Shown: positions 2,471 through 42,761 of the stretch, piece after piece | Layout of the letters: each line of letters starts with the position of its first letter | Numbering within the stretch: the stretch's first letter is position 1 | Assembly (NCBI GenBank): GCA_028532765.1 | Contig: JAQQAR010000091.1 | Location: 1-64,000 of the forward strand | Direction of reading: 5' to 3' | Origin: Sphaerochaetaceae bacterium | Lineage (GTDB): Bacteria; Spirochaetota; Spirochaetia; Sphaerochaetales; Sphaerochaetaceae | Length of the DNA: 64,000 nt | Position numbers and translations under genes: made by a program | Notes under the pieces: model-generated | What the model saw: only the letters and a program-made list of their open reading frames with translations | Database searches by the model: none | What the model was told of the DNA's origin: nothing

Positions 2471-3808
2471 ATGGGCGCATTCAAGGCGTATGATATCAGG
2501 GGAATCTACAACAAAGATTTCAATAAAGAAACTGTCTACAAGATTGGGTATTTTCTACCCCAGCTGTTGAACAGCAAGGTGGTACTGGTAGGACGGGACG
2601 TGAGATCCAGCAGCGAGGAGATCTTCGCATCCTTGTGCGAAGGGATCACAGACAGTGGTGCTGATGTATTTGACATTGGACTCGCTACCACTCCTATGGT
2701 GTACTTCTCCACGGTACACTTCGAGGTTGATGCATCTGTTCAGATTACCGCAAGTCACAATCCTGCCATCTACAATGGGTTGAAGATCAGTAGGACTAAG
2801 GCTGTTCCTGTTGGCTCTGACAGTGGACTGAAAGAACTCGAGGCCATGGTAAACAATGACCCAATAGTGGTTGCTGAACAGAAAGGTACAGTACAAAGCA
2901 AAGATGCAAAACAACCCTATCTTGCCTTCTTGAAGCAGTACGTTCCAGATACAAGTGGTTTAAACCTCTCCATCGACTGTTCTCATGGCATGGCAAACCT
3001 CCTGGTCAAGGATCTCCTTGGCAATGATCATCACTATCTGTATGACCATTTCGATGGTACTTTCCCTGCCCATGAACCCAATCCTCTGGAAGTCGAGAAC
3101 TGCGAGGACTTGAAAGTAGCTGTCCTTAAGAACAAGAGCGATATTGGAGTCATTTATGACGGTGATGCAGACCGAGTTATGTTCCTTGATGAAAATGGTA
3201 GGTTCCTTCAACCCGATTACATAACAGCAGTCCTTGGGTACTACTATTTGCACAAGGAAAAGGGAAACGTGCTTGTCGATATCCGCACAAGTCGCTCTAC
3301 TACTGAGTACCTGACCAACCTTGGTGCAACAGTACATGTCTGGAAGGTGGGCCATGCGTTCGCGAAGACAAAACTCCGTGACCTTGGGGCAATCTTCGGA
3401 GGAGAACTTGCCGGACACTATTACTTCAGGGACTTCTATAACTGCGATAGTGGTTTCCTCGCCTCCCTCTTGGTATTACAGGTTGTAACGGAGCTCAAGA
3501 AACAGGGAAAAACCATTGGTGAGTTTATTGACTCGGTCATAGCCTATGCAAACAGTGGAGAAATGAATTTCAAGCTGGAACAGAAAGATGAAGCCATGCA
3601 GGCACTCTTTGAGCGTTATGCTACCAATGACAAGCCTGAGAAGGTAATGGACTTTGATGGGTATCGCATCGAATTCCCTTCCTGGTGGTTCAATGTTCGA
3701 AAGAGTAACACAGAACCCTATCTACGCCTGGTTGTAGAGGCAAAGACGAAGGCAGAACTCCAGGAGAGAACCAAAGAGCTTTCCTCGATTATCAAGCAAT
3801 TCAACTAA
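2471..3808 (+). CDS. Phosphomannomutase/phosphoglucomutase
   Basis: Alpha-D-phosphohexomutase of 445 aa, the usual length of the ManB/AlgC branch. It interconverts hexose 1- and 6-phosphates through a phosphoserine. Visible signatures are the N-terminal FKAYDIRGIY, the active-serine loop TASHNP (about 93-98), the Mg-binding loop DGDADR (about 231-236), the sugar-specificity loop GGELAGH (about 316) and the C-terminal phosphate-binding RKSNTEPYLRL. The gene lies between the unknown protein (3-nt gap) and galE (16-nt gap); mutase plus epimerase would supply UDP-sugars for glycan synthesis. Which hexose is preferred cannot be read from the sequence, so no symbol is given. Confidence 0.93.
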   Translation: MGAFKAYDIRGIYNKDFNKETVYKIGYFLPQLLNSKVVLVGRDVRSSSEEIFASLCEGITDSGADVFDIGLATTPMVYFSTVHFEVDASVQITASHNPAIYNGLKISRTKAVPVGSDSGLKELEAMVNNDPIVVAEQKGTVQSKDAKQPYLAFLKQYVPDTSGLNLSIDCSHGMANLLVKDLLGNDHHYLYDHFDGTFPAHEPNPLEVENCEDLKVAVLKNKSDIGVIYDGDADRVMFLDENGRFLQPDYITAVLGYYYLHKEKGNVLVDIRTSRSTTEYLTNLGATVHVWKVGHAFAKTKLRDLGAIFGGELAGHYYFRDFYNCDSGFLASLLVLQVVTELKKQGKTIGEFIDSVIAYANSGEMNFKLEQKDEAMQALFERYATNDKPEKVMDFDGYRIEFPSWWFNVRKSNTEPYLRLVVEAKTKAELQERTKELSSIIKQFN

Positions 3809-32901: not shown

Positions 32902-34383
32902 TTATACCTCTCTATTCAGCACGTCCAACGCTGTTTCAATTCGTTTATATGTCTCTTCCTGGCCCAATAGTTTGATCGAGTCAAACAATGGAAGGCTAAC
33001 CGTACTACCGGTGAGGGCAACCCTCAAGGGCATGAATACCCCATTCACCTTGATATCCAATTCATCGGCCAGGGAAGCAATCTCCGCTTCAATTTCCTCT
33101 TGGTTCTTGCCTGTATCAAACCCTTCCTTAAGCTTTGCATAAGCTCTCTCCAAGGCGAGGGTTGCAGTAGCCAGGTCCACCTTTTTGGCAGCGAACAAAT
33201 TCACATCCTCATAGGCGGGTGTCTCAAAAAGGAACCTACTCAGATCTACAATGTCACTGAGTACCTTCAGCCGCTCCTTACTCACTACCGTGAGAGCAAG
33301 CATGTCGCGCTTCTCATGTTCCTGTAGGGGAAGCGTGACAAATCCAGCTTTCTCCATGTAGGGAAGCAACATTTCCAAGAGCTCTTCATCACCTTTCTGA
33401 CGGATATACTGTCCATTGAACCAATCAAGTTTCTTGTAGTCAAATATCCCAGGAGCCTTATTGATCTTCTCCAGAGTGAAGAGTTGTTCAAGTTCTTCCT
33501 TGCTGAAAAACTCCCTCTGTCCATCGTAGGACCATCCTACCATGCTCACATAGTTCATCAAGGCCTCAGGCAGGTATCCCTTCTCACGAAACTCCCTCAC
33601 AGCTGTCGAGCCGTGACGCTTGCTGAGCTTCTGCCCATCCTTGCCCATAACCATCGGCAGATGGCAATACATGGGAGGCTCCCAACCAAAAGCTTCATAG
33701 AGAATGATGTGCAGAGGACCGGAAGGAATCCACTCCTGTGCTCTCATGATATGTGTAATACCCATCATGTGGTCATCAATGACGTTTGCCAGATGATAGG
33801 TGGGAAATCCGTCACTCTTGAGCAGTACAGGATCAGGACTGACATCCTTGTTCTTTCTAGAGATATCACCCATGAGCACATCGTGGAAGGTTGTCTTGCC
33901 CTCAGAGGGCACCTTCAAACGGATGACGGGTTTTATGCCTTCATCCTCATACGCCTTACGCTGTTCGGCAGTAAGATTACGGCAGTGGCGGTCATATCCC
34001 TGCTGCTTGCTCTTCTCTTTCTGTTGTTGTTCACGCAAGGCTTCCAACCGTTGTGGGGTACAGTAGCAGTAATAGGCTTTGCCTTCATCTACCAGTTTCT
34101 CAGCATACTGCTTGTACAGGTCGAAACGCTCGCTTTGGATATAGGGACCATAATCTCCGCCGACTACGGGACCCTCATCCCATGTAACACCCAACCAATC
34201 GAGCGTGTCATATAAGTCCTGCAAGGACTCATCACTGTAACGTTCACGATCGGTGTCTTCCACACGTAAAATGAACTTGCCTCCGTTTGCACGGGCAAAG
34301 AAATAGTTGAATAATGCGGTCCTTACCCCACCGATATGTTGCAGACCGGTCGGAGAAGGTGCATAGCGTACTCGTACTTCCAT
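32902..34383 (-). CDS. gltX: Glutamyl-tRNA synthetase
   Basis: 493 aa class I enzyme. VRYAPSPTGLQHIGGVRTALFNY at the N-terminus carries the HIGH-type motif, and KLSKRHGSTAV near 255 the KMSKS loop. First gene of gltX-glyQS-tyrS. GGAG lies 9 nt before the ATG. Whether it charges tRNA-Glu only, or also tRNA-Gln for the amidotransferase route, cannot be decided here. Confidence 0.97.
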   Translation of the reverse strand: MEVRVRYAPSPTGLQHIGGVRTALFNYFFARANGGKFILRVEDTDRERYSDESLQDLYDTLDWLGVTWDEGPVVGGDYGPYIQSERFDLYKQYAEKLVDEGKAYYCYCTPQRLEALREQQQKEKSKQQGYDRHCRNLTAEQRKAYEDEGIKPVIRLKVPSEGKTTFHDVLMGDISRKNKDVSPDPVLLKSDGFPTYHLANVIDDHMMGITHIMRAQEWIPSGPLHIILYEAFGWEPPMYCHLPMVMGKDGQKLSKRHGSTAVREFREKGYLPEALMNYVSMVGWSYDGQREFFSKEELEQLFTLEKINKAPGIFDYKKLDWFNGQYIRQKGDEELLEMLLPYMEKAGFVTLPLQEHEKRDMLALTVVSKERLKVLSDIVDLSRFLFETPAYEDVNLFAAKKVDLATATLALERAYAKLKEGFDTGKNQEEIEAEIASLADELDIKVNGVFMPLRVALTGSTVSLPLFDSIKLLGQEETYKRIETALDVLNREV

Positions 34384-34498: not shown

Positions 34499-34527
34499 TT
34501 GACCTTCTTGCCGTATTTCGATACGGT
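34499..34527 (+). promoter_or_regulatory. Promoter of the HD-domain gene
   Basis: -35 TTGACC (34499-34504), 17-bp spacer, -10 TACGGT (34522-34527). It overlaps the first possible start codon (TTG 34499), which argues that translation begins further down, after GGAGG at 34542. A 10-bp palindrome GACACGTGTC lies upstream at 34470-34479. Confidence 0.4.
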
Positions 34528-35221
34528 ACACTCAATTGAACGGAGGAACACAATACTGATCAACCCAACGATACCAGCCTTTTTTGCAGGGGGAAACACC
34601 TCCCTCACAAACCTGTTTAGGTTGCCTGTTACCCTATTTACTACGTTATACACTTCCAAATATCTCAGCCCTTTCAATCAGTTCTCCAGCTTTCCAACTG
34701 AACTGCTGTTCCTACTCTTTTCCCTTATCAGTTTTCTACTCGCATACAACATCCAACGAACCTGCAGACCGCGTTATCTGCGAGAGCATGAACTGCTGGT
34801 AAGTGATATTCTTGCTCATGAGGAATTCCTCAAACTGAAAGCGTATCATCATCATGCAGGTCATATCTACGACCATGTCACCAGGGTAAGCTACATCTCA
34901 TACCGTATCAGCAAGGCTTTAGGGCTGGATTATCACGCTGCAGCACGGGGAGGCTTGCTCCATGACTTCTTCCTCTATGACTGGAGGGAACGAAAGAGCC
35001 AGGATGAGAAGCGCTCATCCCACGGAAAGGAACACCCTTATATCGCTTTGGAGAATGCACAGAAGTACTTCACAGTGAATGCAAAGGAAGCTGACATCAT
35101 TGTCAAACATATGTTCCCAAAGACCCTCTCTCTTCCCAGATATCGGGAGAGTTTCATCGTAAGTCTCAGCGACAAGATTGCTGCAGTCTACGAATATTCC
35201 CTAGGACTCAAACGCTCCTAA
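34499..35221 (+). CDS. HD-domain phosphohydrolase with N-terminal membrane segment
   Basis: Up to 240 aa. A hydrophobic segment near 68-84 is followed by a cytoplasmic HD domain: His in HHHAGHIYDHV near 116, the HD pair in GLLHDFFLYDW near 153, HGKEHP near 175 and a final Asp in SLSDKIAAVYEY. These ligands suggest a metal-dependent phosphohydrolase of unknown substrate. The start is unclear: the frame opens at TTG 34499, which coincides with a -35 box, while the best Shine-Dalgarno (GGAGG 34542-34546) precedes ATA 34553 and CTG 34556. Its stop overlaps the convergent hydrolase stop by 4 bp. Confidence 0.75.
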   Translation: MTFLPYFDTVHSIERRNTILINPTIPAFFAGGNTSLTNLFRLPVTLFTTLYTSKYLSPFNQFSSFPTELLFLLFSLISFLLAYNIQRTCRPRYLREHELLVSDILAHEEFLKLKAYHHHAGHIYDHVTRVSYISYRISKALGLDYHAAARGGLLHDFFLYDWRERKSQDEKRSSHGKEHPYIALENAQKYFTVNAKEADIIVKHMFPKTLSLPRYRESFIVSLSDKIAAVYEYSLGLKRS

Positions 35222-36060
35222 CGTTTTCCTTCTATCCAGGAAACCACCTCAGCCATGGCCCTATCCTGGGCCTTCTGATTCTTGTCGTAAGGCATGAGGT
35301 GTCCGATATCTTCAATATGCAGGTGTTTGTTTACCCTTTTGCTCTTGCTGGTAACCAACATACAGGCTTCCTGGGGAATGGTGGGATCCTTTCCTCCGCT
35401 GATAGCCAATGTATCTGATCCTAGGTGATCGATGCAGGCAACCGCTTGCTTTCGAACCCGTTCCAACTCCCAAATTCCTGATGGAAACTGATATGACCAA
35501 TACTGGGATCCCAGATATGCATCGTCATCGGGATCTCCCTCATAGTAGAAGTGATATTCTGGATCACCCTGCCAGGAGACTTTGCGTTTCTTGATAAAAT
35601 GCTTCAGCAACCAAATGGTCTTCCTCGGAATAGCGGGAATCACCAGAGCCGGAGCAAGCAAAACCAACGTGTCGGCAGAAAAGGCATCAGCAATAATGGT
35701 GGCGATGGCTCCTCCCATGGAGTGACCAACCACGGAAACCTTTTCATATCTACTGGAAAGATGAGCATAGGCATCATAAGCAGTTCCAATCCAGTCCTCT
35801 GCCTTGGAAGCGAGAAAATCCTTGTTGCTTGTACCGTGACCCGGGTAACGGGGACAATAGACATCATACCCCTTCTCGAAGAGATCAATACCTGGCCTGA
35901 TCAGCTCCCCAGGATACCCAGTGTATCCATGACAGAGCAACACTGCCTGCTCTGTTGTCTCGTCATGGACCATTGCCCATGCCCTGGCACTTTTTCTGAC
36001 AGGAGACTGGTCCTGATAGTGCTTTGCTGAAAAATCGGGTACTTCATAGGTTATATGCAT
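35218..36060 (-). CDS. Alpha/beta hydrolase (carboxylesterase/monoacylglycerol lipase-like)
   Basis: 280 aa. The oxyanion region is LLCHGYTGYPGE near 43; nucleophile elbow GHSMGG near 112-117 (Ser114 region); acid Asp in SGGKDPTIPQ near 226; His in DIGHLMPYD near 255. The fold and the YPGHGTS segment resemble bacterial carboxylesterases and monoglyceride lipases. No signal peptide, so cytoplasmic. Start at 36060 after GGAGG. It lies 11 nt after the LuxR-type gene and may share its transcript. Confidence 0.9.
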   Translation of the reverse strand: MHITYEVPDFSAKHYQDQSPVRKSARAWAMVHDETTEQAVLLCHGYTGYPGELIRPGIDLFEKGYDVYCPRYPGHGTSNKDFLASKAEDWIGTAYDAYAHLSSRYEKVSVVGHSMGGAIATIIADAFSADTLVLLAPALVIPAIPRKTIWLLKHFIKKRKVSWQGDPEYHFYYEGDPDDDAYLGSQYWSYQFPSGIWELERVRKQAVACIDHLGSDTLAISGGKDPTIPQEACMLVTSKSKRVNKHLHIEDIGHLMPYDKNQKAQDRAMAEVVSWIEGKR

Positions 36061-36071
36061 AAAGCTTCCTC

Positions 36072-36965
36072 CTACCAACTCTGTTTCAAAAGGTTCAATA
36101 AGTCTATGCGGCTCCTTACCTGGGTCTTCCCATAGATGTTTGCCACATGGTTGTTCACCGTATTTGCGCTGATCCCCAGCTCACTGGCAATCTCCTTATT
36201 GGTCAAACCTTTGCTGATCAACTGTATGACCGAGAATTCCCTCTCCGTTATATGATACTCCTCAAGATCATCAAGGCTCAATTCAATCTTTGGCTTCTTA
36301 GCCCCATCATCACGGCCAATCCTTACGAATGTGATGAACAAGAATGTCATAATTGTGATGGAAAGTGCAAGGAAGTAAACACCAAAAAGGAAGGGCTTAA
36401 GCGCAGGAAAGAAGAGAGCCAACAGAATTGCCGGTACCATTGAAGCACTCACGATAATGATGGCAAGCGCTGAAGCTCTGGCAGTCTTGTTCTCAATCGT
36501 CTTGATGTTCCGCAACATGACTATCAAACTGAAGCCCATGACGAAAACAAACACAAAAAGCATCGCCTGGTCCAATACCATCTTTCCCGTAATCTCTCGT
36601 GCTATCCCCAATCCAAGATAGGTGGCAGCTAGGGAAAAAAACAATCCTTTGTATGGATTTCTCCATGGGTGGGCTATCACCCAGGTTGTAAAGTACGGGA
36701 TAAAGACGATAAGGAAGGCAAGATCAGCAAGAAATACTGAAGTGATAATGATCGAAACTACCGTATAGGCAACTCCACTGAGGAACATTTGGCTGAGAAC
36801 CTGTAGTGCCAAGAGCATCATACATCCCAGAAGGGATGCATGACAGACAATAAAATAGGTTGCCCAACGCTTTGCGTTCGCAAGGCGGTACACGATGGCC
36901 AAGGCCAATGTCATACAACCAAGACCGAACGCAAGCATGTAGACCAGTAGCAGGATTCCGCTCAC
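36072..36965 (-). CDS. Membrane-bound LuxR-family transcriptional regulator
   Basis: 297 aa. Residues 1-220 form about seven hydrophobic segments; residues 233-297 form a LuxR-type helix-turn-helix with the typical TEREFSVIQLISKGLTNKEI and LGISANTVNNHV. Such proteins are presumed membrane sensors that act directly on DNA; ligand unknown. GTG start at 36965 chosen because AAGGATAGG lies just upstream and it clears the rloB stop by 4 nt; the frame could extend to 37049 inside rloB, but that extension is not hydrophobic. Confidence 0.85.
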   Translation of the reverse strand: MSGILLLVYMLAFGLGCMTLALAIVYRLANAKRWATYFIVCHASLLGCMMLLALQVLSQMFLSGVAYTVVSIIITSVFLADLAFLIVFIPYFTTWVIAHPWRNPYKGLFFSLAATYLGLGIAREITGKMVLDQAMLFVFVFVMGFSLIVMLRNIKTIENKTARASALAIIIVSASMVPAILLALFFPALKPFLFGVYFLALSITIMTFLFITFVRIGRDDGAKKPKIELSLDDLEEYHITEREFSVIQLISKGLTNKEIASELGISANTVNNHVANIYGKTQVRSRIDLLNLLKQSW

Positions 36966-36969
36966 TGTC

Positions 36970-37617
36970 CTATCCTTTATTCTTGTTGAGGCCCAGGCGC
37001 TTCTGATTGTGTGTAAGATCAGCCAACCCGCAAATATCGGTGATATCATTCAACAATGCCACCATATTGGTAGGCGCCAACCCTACCTGCGCAGCTACGA
37101 GCGCATTATAGGAAGATGCATTCACGGCAGCCTTTGACTTCGCTGAATAGAGTTTGAGATGCAGGTCAAGTCCTTCATCCAAAAGATAGGAGGCATCACT
37201 TCTAAAGACAGGGAATTGCTTGGAGAGTGCGCTCTCGATCAGAGCAGGATCATTCACGAAACCCTTGGGAGTCTGCAGGTGCAGCAGATACCAAAGAGGC
37301 AGGGATGGATTGTTCCAAGCCAGACGAACCTTTTTCTTCTCTGCAAGGGGCATTGCTTTCTTTACGTCCTGTACGGAGACATTCAGGTCAACAAGTCCGA
37401 AGACCAACCATACACTGCTGTATTTCTCCTTGTTCCGCATCTGCCCAGCCAAGGTGATCAAGTGGGAAAGATCCTTGTAATTAGGTTCCCATACCACCGT
37501 CATATTTGCATAGCGGCAGTCCTTGCGCATTTGGGAAAAATAGAGGGCTTCCGCCTCTGTTGCTGTCACCACCAGTACGGTCCTGCGTGGTTTTTGGGAT
37601 ATGCGTTTTCGTGCCAT
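36970..37617 (-). CDS. RloB-like protein with altered catalytic motifs
   Basis: 215 aa. Position directly after a RloA-type ATPase and overall pattern match RloB (AbiLii-like, TOPRIM-like fold). The usual conserved blocks can be located but are changed: the CEGEKTEPNYF block reads TATEAEALYF (18-27), the FDxD block reads FGLVDLN (73-79), and the NPSFELW block reads NNPSLPLW (102-109). Several acidic residues thought to bind metal are therefore missing. It could be an inactive or repurposed relative of the defence nuclease. 4 nt upstream of the LuxR gene. Confidence 0.78.
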   Translation of the reverse strand: MARKRISQKPRRTVLVVTATEAEALYFSQMRKDCRYANMTVVWEPNYKDLSHLITLAGQMRNKEKYSSVWLVFGLVDLNVSVQDVKKAMPLAEKKKVRLAWNNPSLPLWYLLHLQTPKGFVNDPALIESALSKQFPVFRSDASYLLDEGLDLHLKLYSAKSKAAVNASSYNALVAAQVGLAPTNMVALLNDITDICGLADLTHNQKRLGLNKNKG

Positions 37618-37619
37618 TA

Positions 37620-38867
37620 TTACTCCTCCTTATCCTTGCTTGTGTCCACAAAAGAGAACTCCGAGAGAATCGGAAGAGCTCCGAATGCTCCATTCATGTA
37701 CTGACTCTGCGTCTTGTCCTTACTTCTTGAATACTTGAAATTGGCCAGACTGAAGTATACGGTGGCACTCTCACTGTTCTTCTCAGCAAAGTAGACACCA
37801 TCACGCCTGAGCAATCCCGGCTTGAGGAGGGAGGGGTTGCAATCAACCACAAGCATCTGGGAACCATACCCAAGGTTGCTTGCCTCGAATATATCCACAA
37901 TGTGACAGAGAACATCAGGATGTAACAGCATGCCAAAATCATCGATCACCAGTGTCTGGTTCCGGGTAAAGGCATCAAAAAATGCAACACCCATCAGACA
38001 CAGGCGCCTAAGACTCAAACTCTCCAGGGAAAAATAGGAGGCATAGTGTTGTGTAACATTGGTATGGACAAAGATGATTCTCTCATCCTTGACCCTGATG
38101 TCACGAATATCAGTGATATCGACACTCCAAAGGAAGTTGATCAACTGCTGGACCCACTCAGGATGTTCACTCAAGCGGTTGATGAGATATTTCTCACTGA
38201 TGTTTGAAACACCCATAGGGAGCAGATGCAAGCTGTCACTCAACCAAGCATAGAGCAAAGAGGTGGTATCACTGCCCTTCTGGGCAGATGCTGCCAGGAA
38301 TGAGTGCTTCTCATCTACCTTCCCAACCAATCGCTTCTTATCACCACGATACATCTTGCCCCATCGATACTTGTAGGTCAGTTCTTGCTCATCGAGTAGG
38401 AGACTGTTCTCGTCAACCTTCCTTTCAAACATCATTCGTTTTGAACGACCAATGAGGTGGTAGAGGGATTCCTCGAAAATCTTTTCCCGGTCGCTGACCA
38501 ATGTGTACTGAGCAATGGTTGGTTCCCCACTCTCTTCATCACGGTCTACTAGTACCCTGATGATAATGGTTGCGGGCTGTCCCTTCTCCTCGGAATAGGC
38601 GAATGATGTACCACTGAGAATCTGGAGAGGGTTCTCCGTCTCCTCTGTTGCACATACAATACCTTTCAATGCTTCAAGAGCACGAACGAAAGAGCTCTTT
38701 CCTGCTCCATTGGGACCTACAATGGCTGCTGTCTTGATCAGCTTCAGTTTCTCAGTGACTTCGACAACTTTTGACTCAGGGAACCTATTATCCCTGACCG
38801 CTTCAAAAGAAATGGTTTGCGCAGACTTTACGGACTTGAAGTTCGCAATAGTCATATCCAGCAGCAT
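37620..38867 (-). CDS. RloA-like AAA/ABC-type ATPase
   Basis: 415 aa of the AAA_21/OLD-like class. It begins MLLDMTIANFKSVKS and has an intact Walker A GPNGAGKSS (51-59). The ES-G-T-RL signature seen in relatives reads ESLSLRRL (282-289), the Walker B LVIDD (306-310) has Asp for the catalytic Glu, and the switch His region TTHD reads VDCN (341-344). The C-terminal GLLRRDGVYFAEK and YMNGAFGALPIL are typical of RloA. RloA/RloB pairs occur with restriction systems and resemble AbiL. 2 nt before rloB; GAGGAGG precedes the ATG. Confidence 0.83.
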   Translation of the reverse strand: MLLDMTIANFKSVKSAQTISFEAVRDNRFPESKVVEVTEKLKLIKTAAIVGPNGAGKSSFVRALEALKGIVCATEETENPLQILSGTSFAYSEEKGQPATIIIRVLVDRDEESGEPTIAQYTLVSDREKIFEESLYHLIGRSKRMMFERKVDENSLLLDEQELTYKYRWGKMYRGDKKRLVGKVDEKHSFLAASAQKGSDTTSLLYAWLSDSLHLLPMGVSNISEKYLINRLSEHPEWVQQLINFLWSVDITDIRDIRVKDERIIFVHTNVTQHYASYFSLESLSLRRLCLMGVAFFDAFTRNQTLVIDDFGMLLHPDVLCHIVDIFEASNLGYGSQMLVVDCNPSLLKPGLLRRDGVYFAEKNSESATVYFSLANFKYSRSKDKTQSQYMNGAFGALPILSEFSFVDTSKDKEE

Positions 38868-38896: not shown

Positions 38897-39529
38897 TCAC
38901 CAAAGATTTTGCATACTCCGCCCCACTGATGGCCATTTCTCGATGGCATCCATCAAGCGAGATGGAAGGGTTTCATCGCCATGATTGTCCGTGGCGATCA
39001 CATCAATCAAGCCAAGTTCCAAATAGGGAAGCGAGAGTCCGCTCTCCACAGCTTCAACGTTTGTCTGTAGTAAACAACCGAGAGAACGCAAACGTTGCAA
39101 CATTGCACTCTTTGGGTTCAACCAAAGATATCGTTCAACATGCGCTAAGAGAGGACGGTAGTGCTTCTCTGTGAGTTGTTGCAACCGTTCCAACAATCTG
39201 GGCGGTGGCAAGGAGAGCCCAAACTCCACCAACGCAAACCTCCCATCGATGGGAACCGACTTGAGGGTCTCCTGTTCACCTACAAAAAGCTCACTGCCCA
39301 AGTAGGTCTGTATCCCTAAAGCCTCCGCTTCTTTCTTTGCCCACTCGTAGGTCTCTCTGAGCCCAGCGATGTTTGTAGTCACATAAGGATTGTAGATATG
39401 GGGAGTAAATGCTATTGCTGTGACGCCAGAGAGCTGGTAAAGATTCAGCATACGGATGAACTGTTCTCGTGAAAGGTAGCCGTCGTCAATCTCAGGCAGA
39501 AGATGGCAATGCATATCACAGATACCCAT
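38897..39529 (-). CDS. PHP-domain protein, CpsB/CapC-like tyrosine phosphatase
   Basis: 210 aa. DMHCHLLPEIDDG at the N-terminus is the CpsB/CapC signature with PHP metal ligands; TPHIYNPY near 42, a Glu-containing GSELF near 78, LAHVERY near 129 and the final ATDNHG near 184 complete the metal site. CpsB enzymes dephosphorylate tyrosine kinases that control capsule export. No capsule or kinase gene is nearby, so the substrate is open. AAGGAG precedes the ATG; it is 29 nt before rloA and may share its transcript. Confidence 0.88.
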   Translation of the reverse strand: MGICDMHCHLLPEIDDGYLSREQFIRMLNLYQLSGVTAIAFTPHIYNPYVTTNIAGLRETYEWAKKEAEALGIQTYLGSELFVGEQETLKSVPIDGRFALVEFGLSLPPPRLLERLQQLTEKHYRPLLAHVERYLWLNPKSAMLQRLRSLGCLLQTNVEAVESGLSLPYLELGLIDVIATDNHGDETLPSRLMDAIEKWPSVGRSMQNLW

Positions 39530-40169: not shown

Positions 40170-41318
40170 CTACTCCATTACCATGTATTGAGTCATTGTT
40201 ACACCCTGTCCATCATCCACCGAGTCCCCGCTTATCTGCTGCTGGGCAAGTTGGTCCTGACTCAATGCTTGTTGCAGAATCAAGAGCGTATCATGGGCTC
40301 GTTTATCACCCGTTGAGTTATACACATCATTCATAAAATCTACAGACGCCTGAAGATTTCCCAATGCTGCAAGCATCAGGGATGCATTGTATCCACTACT
40401 AAGTTGGCGTGTTTGTTGCCAGACAGACAGGAATTGCTGGTACGCTCTTTGGTATTCGCCATCCTTGGCAAATTGGTGTGCTGTATCTGCTGAAGCGAGC
40501 TTTTCCTTGTTCTTCATAAGTGAAAGATACCTTGTCTCCCAAGAGGGAGCCAACTGGAGTGCCATCTTGTCTGTTGCACGCTCGATTATTTGGGAAAAGA
40601 GAGAATCGAAAGAGGGAGCCAGACCACTGCTGTAGTTCCTCTCATCACGATAGCTGCCATCCGGGGCATAGTATCGTGTCCCAATCTTGGTTTGCTCCTC
40701 TTCCTTGTCTGTAAAGCTATCACTTGCCAATATTCTACCATCTCGCAAACTGGTTATGGTGTATGAGAGCCCAAGGGTGGCTTCCTGTACAAGGCAATAC
40801 TCTCGCTTCGTGACTTGCTCACTGCTTACACCGCTACTATCGGTAACAAACTCCCGTCTATCAGTCCCCTCTACGCGCTCTTCCATATCCATATAGGAGA
40901 TTTCACTGCTCATGAGCAGGTCAAACCCCTTATCACGCATCAAGCGAATACTATCTTCGCCTGCTTTGGAAAGACTGAGATAGGCATCGGTAGCCTCCGG
41001 GGCCAGTATTGAGAAATAGCGGGTATCACTCACAGCCTGTACAATCTTCCGTGTTGCAAGAGAGGCAACACGCTCTGAAAGATTAGGGTCGTAACCGGTG
41101 GAGAGCGTAAAATCAGTCTCCTGCAAGCCACTGACCCAGGGACTCACAGGTCTGCCGTAGGGAAAACGGTACATGGATGTAGAGGAGACGGCGAGACTCC
41201 TTCCTCCCTGTAGGTCCACTTCACCCGGTACCATATGACGAACCCTCACCGAGGTTGCGCAACCACTGAGGACCAAGACAAAAACAAGAACCAGTAACCC
41301 TGGTGCCAATCGCTTCAT
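40170..41318 (-). CDS. Lipoprotein of unknown function with C-terminal helical-repeat region
   Basis: 382 aa. The signal peptide ends in LVLSGC (Cys20), giving a lipid-anchored envelope protein. Residues 25-250 are mixed alpha/beta, with a RFPYGRPVSPW segment and a motif VVSSTS-like start; residues 265-350 look like TPR helices (DGEYQRAYQQFLSVWQQ). The layout recalls CsgG/DUF6340-type lipoproteins, but I cannot assign a family. Its ATG overlaps the pdxA stop by one base (TAATG), so translation is coupled. Confidence 0.82.
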   Translation of the reverse strand: MKRLAPGLLVLVFVLVLSGCATSVRVRHMVPGEVDLQGGRSLAVSSTSMYRFPYGRPVSPWVSGLQETDFTLSTGYDPNLSERVASLATRKIVQAVSDTRYFSILAPEATDAYLSLSKAGEDSIRLMRDKGFDLLMSSEISYMDMEERVEGTDRREFVTDSSGVSSEQVTKREYCLVQEATLGLSYTITSLRDGRILASDSFTDKEEEQTKIGTRYYAPDGSYRDERNYSSGLAPSFDSLFSQIIERATDKMALQLAPSWETRYLSLMKNKEKLASADTAHQFAKDGEYQRAYQQFLSVWQQTRQLSSGYNASLMLAALGNLQASVDFMNDVYNSTGDKRAHDTLLILQQALSQDQLAQQQISGDSVDDGQGVTMTQYMVME

Positions 41319-42404: not shown

Positions 42405-42433
42405 TTGACAACCTGATTACCTTCTCTTATGTT
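42405..42433 (+). promoter_or_regulatory. Promoter of the hyperacidic protein gene
   Basis: Consensus -35 TTGACA (42405-42410), 17-bp spacer, -10 TATGTT (42428-42433); about 35 nt of leader to the Shine-Dalgarno-led ATG. Confidence 0.6.
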
Positions 42434-42473
42434 GGAGGTGTGGGATTTGAATCTGATTTCAAGGAGTAACGAC

Positions 42474-42761
42474 ATGGCTAAATACCGTGATGAAGAAGAT
42501 GAGCTCGATGATGAGGAAGATCGTTATTTCAGCAGGCTAGAGGATGAGGAAGATGCTTATCTTGCCGATCTATTTGATGCTCCTGAGGTAATTGATTTCG
42601 GTGATGACGATGATGAAATGCTCGATGAGGATGAAGAAGACGACGAATTGCTCGATGATGGGTTCATGGTCGATGGAGATGAGTCCTACGAGGATGAGTT
42701 TTACGACGAAAATGACGATTTCGATGAGACGGACGCATTTGAAGATGATGACTTTATCTAA
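42474..42761 (+). CDS. Hyperacidic protein, 95 aa
   Basis: About half of the residues (51 of 95 by hand count) are Asp or Glu, in runs such as DDDDEMLDEDEEDDE, broken by Phe, Tyr and Leu. Lys and Arg are almost confined to the first 21 residues (MAKYRDEE...). No signal peptide or Cys. AAGGAG lies 7 nt before ATG 42474; the longer frame from 42429 lacks such a site. It has its own promoter and terminator, so it is a real single-gene unit. Possible roles are a nucleic-acid mimic, an ion buffer or a chaperone-like tail protein; none is shown. Confidence 0.82.
   Translation: MAKYRDEEDELDDEEDRYFSRLEDEEDAYLADLFDAPEVIDFGDDDDEMLDEDEEDDELLDDGFMVDGDESYEDEFYDENDDFDETDAFEDDDFI

Follow-up and report, generated by a model that had tools for sequence, protein, structure and literature searches.

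RloA- and RloB-like genes and their neighbourhood

The window analysed here, a stretch of 64,000 nucleotides from the genome of a Sphaerochaetaceae bacterium (3.16 Mb, 93 contigs), carries at positions 36970-38867 a pair of adjacent genes, coding for an ABC ATPase, protein A, and a TOPRIM-type protein, protein B, with the following neighbours:

38897..39529, minus strand: CpsB/CapC-type PHP phosphatase, upstream, 29 nt before A (Pfam PF19567, 3e-29)
37620..38867, minus strand: protein A, RloA/AbiLi-like ABC ATPase, 415 aa (PADLOC AbiLi, Pfam AAA_21, AF2/Foldseek)
36970..37617, minus strand: protein B, RloB/AbiLii-like TOPRIM-type protein without catalytic acids, 215 aa (Pfam RloB, AF2)
36072..37049, minus strand: LuxR-type HTH protein with a hydrophobic N-terminal part, downstream of B (GerE, 2.1e-17)
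35218..36078, minus strand: alpha/beta hydrolase, next in the operon (Pfam Hydrolase_4, 7e-18; 64 of 81 loci)
32902..34383, minus strand: gltX, glutamyl-tRNA synthetase (Pfam tRNA-synt_1c, 2e-106)

The two frames are intact and separated by 2 nt, and each is preceded by a strong ribosome site (GAGGAGGTAGCG-ATG for A, AAGGAGGAGTAATA-ATG for B), as reported in a preliminary description of this DNA, which had also proposed profile searches against the RloB and AAA_21 families: in these, B scored 49.2 bits (cut-off 31.5) and A 40.1 bits (cut-off 27). Among PADLOC models, A matches AbiLi at 3.7e-59 and B matches AbiLii at 1.8e-10, the only PADLOC match found for B. The same combination, AbiLi for A and Pfam RloB for B, was recovered in all of the 48 family representatives scanned.

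AF2 models, built from the family alignment, reached a pLDDT of 87.8 for A and 92.2 for B. Foldseek matches of A in the PDB are PtuA, Rad50, SMC heads and OLD (E 1e-8 to 1e-11), and the PDB sequence matches of the A profile are mostly P-loop stretches of ABC proteins. For B, the best fold match is a predicted viral RloB-like model (E 2.5e-7, TM 0.65); PDB fold matches are weak, the sensible best being the OLD C-terminal Toprim region (6njv, E 6e-3), and a sequence search of PDB chains returned no match.

The common gene order in the 81 loci compared is pdxA-lipoprotein-cobO-PHP-A-B-LuxR-hydrolase-gltX-glyS-tyrS, and B directly follows A in the window as well as in 80 of 80 retrieved loci. The LuxR-type gene is found in 67 of the 81 loci, at a median gap of +3 nt from B, and the PHP phosphatase gene in 53, at a median gap of 20 nt from A; median gaps are -1 nt between A and B and -4 nt between LuxR and hydrolase, and the three junctions from A to the hydrolase look translationally coupled. 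As listed, the LuxR frame overlaps B: its true start is likely the GTG at 36965, 4 nt past the B stop. In genus g22, the deepest by gltX (root position assumed), the arrangement consists of A-B-gltX only, and at most a few nt separate B from gltX. The gltX gene is the only A-B neighbour shared with this branch, and A-B-gltX, under the assumed root, is the sole arrangement common to the two branches of the deepest split. The conserved neighbours may reflect plain synteny, without shared function, and the link of A-B to tRNA synthetases is suggestive only.

Three further genes of the region were recorded. An orphan lipoprotein of 382 aa (40170-41318, minus strand), fast evolving and without a Pfam match, lies upstream of cobO, PHP, A and B and is present in 75 of 81 loci. 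A small frame of 110 aa, extremely rich in Asp and Glu (42429-42761, plus strand), is divergent from pdxA; 9 of the 81 loci carry it, and locus L084 has an acidic ORF resembling it. Between hydrolase and gltX, on the opposite strand, lies an HD-domain gene (34499-35221, plus strand), limited to the genus of the window (11 of 81 loci).

Catalytic motifs of the two proteins

As references for the 81 Sphaerochaetaceae orthologues, 20 RloA and 13 RloB of the canonical type were included in the alignment. They came from accessory copies within Sphaerochaetaceae, from a single viral contig, and from six plasmids belonging to other phyla (Pseudomonadota and Bacteroidota). The alignment places the ATPase motifs of A as follows:

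38694..38717, minus strand: Walker A, residues 51-58, GPNGAGKS, kept (N53, G56, K57 and S58 each in 81/81)
38004..38024, minus strand: altered signature, residues 282-288, ESLSLRR (canonical ESxGTxR)
37938..37943, minus strand: Walker B D309 and D310, Asp replacing the catalytic Glu
37833..37847, minus strand: switch region, residues 341-345, VDCNP (canonical T-x-H/Q)

The features read in A by the preliminary description, a preserved Walker A, Asp for the catalytic Glu, a lost signature Gly-Thr and a missing switch His, recur throughout the family. In the signature, S285 is invariant and followed by L or M286 in 81/81, where canonical RloA has Gly-Thr in 20/20; D309 and D310 are found in 81/81, against a Glu at the catalytic position in all 20 canonical proteins; in the switch, D342, C343, N344 and P345 are invariant and V341 is found in 77/81. 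The loss of the switch His, replaced by C343, is by itself weak and non-diagnostic, because the canonical residue is His in 15 and Gln in 5 of the 20 RloA. Taken as a triad, ESxGT signature, Walker B DE and T-x-H/Q switch are found in 0/81 family proteins, compared with 20/20 canonical ones for GT and DE. Asp substituting Glu is compatible with ATP hydrolysis, and a slow turnover of A can thus only be inferred; nor is A to be taken as dead by default, since the RecF proteins of Sphaerochaetaceae likewise have Asp-Asp in Walker B and lack a switch His.

The corresponding positions of B, and two motifs of its own, are:

37537..37566, minus strand: RloB motif I, residues 18-27, TATEAEALYF, with A19 in the place of the catalytic Glu (alignment)
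37510..37527, minus strand: family-specific motif RKDCRY, residues 31-36 (K32, D33 and R35 in 81/81; unconserved in canonical RloB)
37384..37404, minus strand: RloB motif II (DxD), residues 72-78, VFGLVDL, acids replaced by G74 and V76 (alignment)
37279..37311, minus strand: RloB motif III, residues 103-113, NPSLPLWYLLH (canonical PCFExW..H), FE replaced, with P107 (alignment)
37018..37032, minus strand: C-terminal motif CGxAD, residues 196-200 (most canonical RloB lack it or diverge here)

Several acids had been described as missing from the B of the window, and the alignment bears this out at A19, G74/V76 and P107, extending it in different degrees to the family. The motif-I Glu is retained in 0/81 proteins (canonical: 12 E, 1 D); in motif II, D74 is found in 4/81 and D76 in 37/81 (canonical: 13/13 D at the first position, 12 D and 1 E at the second); E107 is found in 20/81 (canonical: 13/13). 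The persistence of D76 and E107 in these fractions implies that, motif I apart, the site was lost gradually. H113, common to canonical RloB, is kept in 80/81. Newly fixed residues are F27, K32, D33, R35, G149 and G197, all in 81/81, and the CGxAD motif is close to invariant (C196 80/81, G197 81/81, A199 79/81, D200 78/81). Despite the lost site, the predicted fold of B appears to be retained.

The preliminary description was to be abandoned if canonical residues turned up at shifted positions. Acids do lie near the old ones, E21 in 61/81, E23 in 70/81 and D77 as 59 D and 14 E out of 81, E23 standing at the position of the second Glu in canonical EGxTE; as they vary among the 81 orthologues, relocation of the catalytic acids was rejected and no relocated metal site is supported. 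A nuclease rebuilt from the new invariants (D33, R31/K32/R35, H113 and D200) could draw on the strict conservation of D33, K32, R35, G149 and G197 in 81/81 and of H113 in 80/81, but the motif-I Glu is gone from every protein and the DxD from most. The only nearly invariant acids are D33 and D200, and D33 is predicted to lie where the first helix (residues 21-34) ends, away from the TOPRIM metal site; we regard such a nuclease as very unlikely.

Distribution, descent and selection

Orthologues of A were found in 125 of 139 Sphaerochaetaceae genomes, a count which excludes five genomes with only weak paralogue-type matches (E 1e-11 or worse), and B was likewise found in 125/139; among the more complete and cleaner genomes of the family, B is present in 71 of 75. 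The derived pair is single-copy, adjacent and syntenic in the family, and its ORFs are intact in each of the 81 loci aligned. No orthologue was found outside Sphaerochaetaceae among the 393 spirochaete genomes sampled, nor in viral contigs, where the scan gave one distant canonical homologue. Searches of phages and plasmids returned distant homologues only: the plasmid matches listed are 23-26% identical, and the six inspected represent canonical RloAB, in which every motif or a close equivalent is present. A scan of genome contigs gave one family member among the matches listed, and has little bearing on other phyla.

A reduced-genome clade (genera g3, g8, g15 and g18) is devoid of both A and B and keeps the neighbours; in g8, g15 and g18 the lipoprotein gene adjoins the LuxR gene, ahead of gltX-glyS-tyrS. 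This clean co-loss indicates that A and B are gained or lost as one unit and that the neighbours are independent of the pair. One further candidate for a loss, genome G102, was discarded, its apparent absence being due to a contig end. In another genome in which A-B was not found (G097, locus L185, 132-1280), the gene upstream of gltX resembles, by eye, a type I restriction methylase; this genome is incomplete, and the placement may stem from rearrangement or from faulty assembly.

In a 64-row tree of A, the family proteins group together with 100% support, their stem measuring 2.9 changes per site: it is within this single clade that the RloA changes are fixed and the RloB site is lost, as a phylogeny suggested by the preliminary description was meant to reveal. 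The nearest canonical types are L195, L202, L203 and L200, the exact sister being unsure because of several long canonical branches. A gltX tree for these loci shows largely the groupings of the A tree, and the correlation between A and B distances persists after removal of aminoacyl-tRNA synthetase distances, which represent the species signal (partial r 0.67). L195, L202 and L203, from among these nearest relatives, represent a canonical RloAB subtype recurring in the family, with an RloB of about 199 aa carrying a TEGSTEK-like motif and an RloA with an ESxGTRR-like signature.

Pairwise dN/dS, calculated only for pairs with estimable dS, ranges from 0.010 to 0.080 for A and from 0.006 to 0.126 for B, compared with 0.026-0.092 for the adjacent gltX. 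Between the window and its close Sphaerochaeta relatives, A (0.015-0.031) falls below gltX (0.043-0.071); beyond close pairs A diverges more than gltX (family-wide mean -ln identity 0.53 vs 0.36), and lies therefore outside the most constrained housekeeping class. A fair statement is that A and B are under strong purifying selection; to call A more conserved than tRNA synthetases would go too far.

These constraint data refute the idea of a decaying remnant kept by chance, to which the lost catalytic residues might have pointed: 81 loci are intact and carry many new invariants. Chance and decay are excluded by RloA changes and a motif-I Glu loss common to 81/81 and by dN/dS values of 0.006-0.13, so that the probability left to this reading is practically negligible; the preliminary description, which had argued that the pair was not simply decaying, was right on this point.

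The genome of the window contains, in addition, a separate canonical RloAB (locus L001, contig 69 of G000, around 2531-3397), coding for proteins of 451 and 314 aa with all motifs intact. The genes next to it code for an ABC-type sugar permease, as judged by eye. Its coexistence with the derived pair, and their common ancestry, would suit a role of the latter as antagonist of incoming canonical RloAB, whose assembly would be poisoned by inactive subunits. The pair is however found in 125 genomes irrespective of a canonical copy, dN/dS gives no arms-race signal, and co-assembly is doubtful at an identity to canonical copies of only about 20-30%: this role is scarcely probable.

An anti-phage role might also have persisted. 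The pair might be a fixed, vertically inherited abortive-infection system, in which a non-nuclease RloB binds and titrates, for instance, a replication protein or tRNA; published work describes related pairs as defence systems, and all members scanned (48) match AbiLi/AriA models and Pfam RloB. Defence genes are usually patchy, whereas this pair is near-universal, syntenic within a housekeeping block and low in dN/dS; the viral-contig, phage and plasmid searches gave no sign of exchange with plasmids or phages, and the genome of the window has its canonical RloAB at another place. On balance, an anti-phage role is rather unlikely.

Relation to known systems and putative function

With RloAB/AbiL the pair shares the two-gene layout of ATPase and RloB, gene order and spacing, an AbiLi-type ABC ATPase with Walker A and an RloB domain, and canonical RloAB are its nearest relatives in the tree. 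It differs in the loss of the RloB catalytic acids, in the replaced RloA signature, Walker B Glu and switch, in the extra C-terminal CGxAD motif, and in being core and vertical rather than accessory. Judged from its sequences, the pair is RloAB by descent, yet it lacks the catalytic-motif features and, syntenic as it is in 125/139 family genomes, the accessory and mobile distribution typical of AbiL; for these reasons, annotation as a functional AbiL/RloAB defence would be inappropriate. The preliminary description had proposed a derived, possibly non-nuclease branch of this defence family: the changes fixed family-wide support such a branch, and its RloAB/AbiL ancestry stands, while distribution, synteny and constraint argue against a pair that is still accessory defence.

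RecF-RecR offers a parallel, in which an ATPase acts together with a TOPRIM protein and, in Sphaerochaetaceae, RecF shares with A an Asp-Asp in Walker B and the absence of a switch His. These are different families from A-B, and the likeness is one of analogy: a replacement of RecF/RecR by A-B was rejected, recF being over cut-off in 126/138 and recR found in 133/138 family genomes.

An ABC ATPase is partnered with a TOPRIM protein also in PARIS, where an AriA hexamer sequesters the TOPRIM tRNase AriB until a phage trigger frees it (PMC12409363; PMC11455837), and AbiL and RloB have been grouped in the same ATPase-TOPRIM class (PMC10440598). AriA models match 48/48 derived A members, weakly; by sequence the pair does not belong to PARIS, A matching AbiLi at 3.7e-59 vs AriA at 8e-10 and B matching AbiLii only. 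Moreover, AriB cuts tRNA actively once phage sensing has released it (PMC12409363), whereas the derived B is without a TOPRIM site. A precedent for recruitment of a defence-type ATPase into a core cell function is Cran1, an OLD-family ATPase acting in the archaeal cell cycle (PMC12796447); unlike A-B, it is archaeal, a single protein, and active as nickase and ATPase.

We favour, with a probability of about 0.7, the view that a domesticated RloAB/AbiL pair has turned into a core complex of Sphaerochaetaceae, probably non-nuclease and serving the cell rather than abortive infection. A would still bind ATP and assemble like its RloA/AriA relatives; with its Asp, non-canonical signature and VDCNP switch, it may turn ATP over slowly and act as an ATP-held switch or scaffold. 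B would be a nuclease-dead TOPRIM module, which A holds and positions on a partner. The output would consist of binding or regulation, with no cutting, in a constitutive cell function; a release-and-cut output is unlikely, because the cutting site of B is lost.

As to the target, we would guess at a nucleic acid. Within this class tRNA is put first, as a weak guess, because the related AriB cuts tRNA and because of the A-B-gltX arrangement. Tentatively, and with considerable doubt, a more specific version may be sketched, in which an ATP-held RloA-type clamp presents the nuclease-dead B, bound uncut to tRNA or another nucleic acid, in a process coupled to translation; the coupling is proposed because the operon of the deepest branch is A-B-gltX.

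No description of the derived RloAB pair was found in the literature searched, and a family-wide, probably non-nuclease RloAB variant which behaves like a core gene pair is probably new. Defence systems are usually viewed as accessory and fast-changing; here a defence pair is fixed across a family, with its effector apparently disarmed and its ATPase site uniformly rewritten. The passage of a toxin-like defence pair to a core function is directly testable, the motif-intact canonical copy in the same genome providing the comparison. RloB/AbiL annotations and PADLOC/Pfam matches would overcount defence in these spirochaetes, where pair-bearing genomes would be called AbiL-like. If the clamp proposed above were true, an entire bacterial family would have converted a defence nuclease into a constitutive regulator; the pair suggests a weapon recast as a routine component of the cell.
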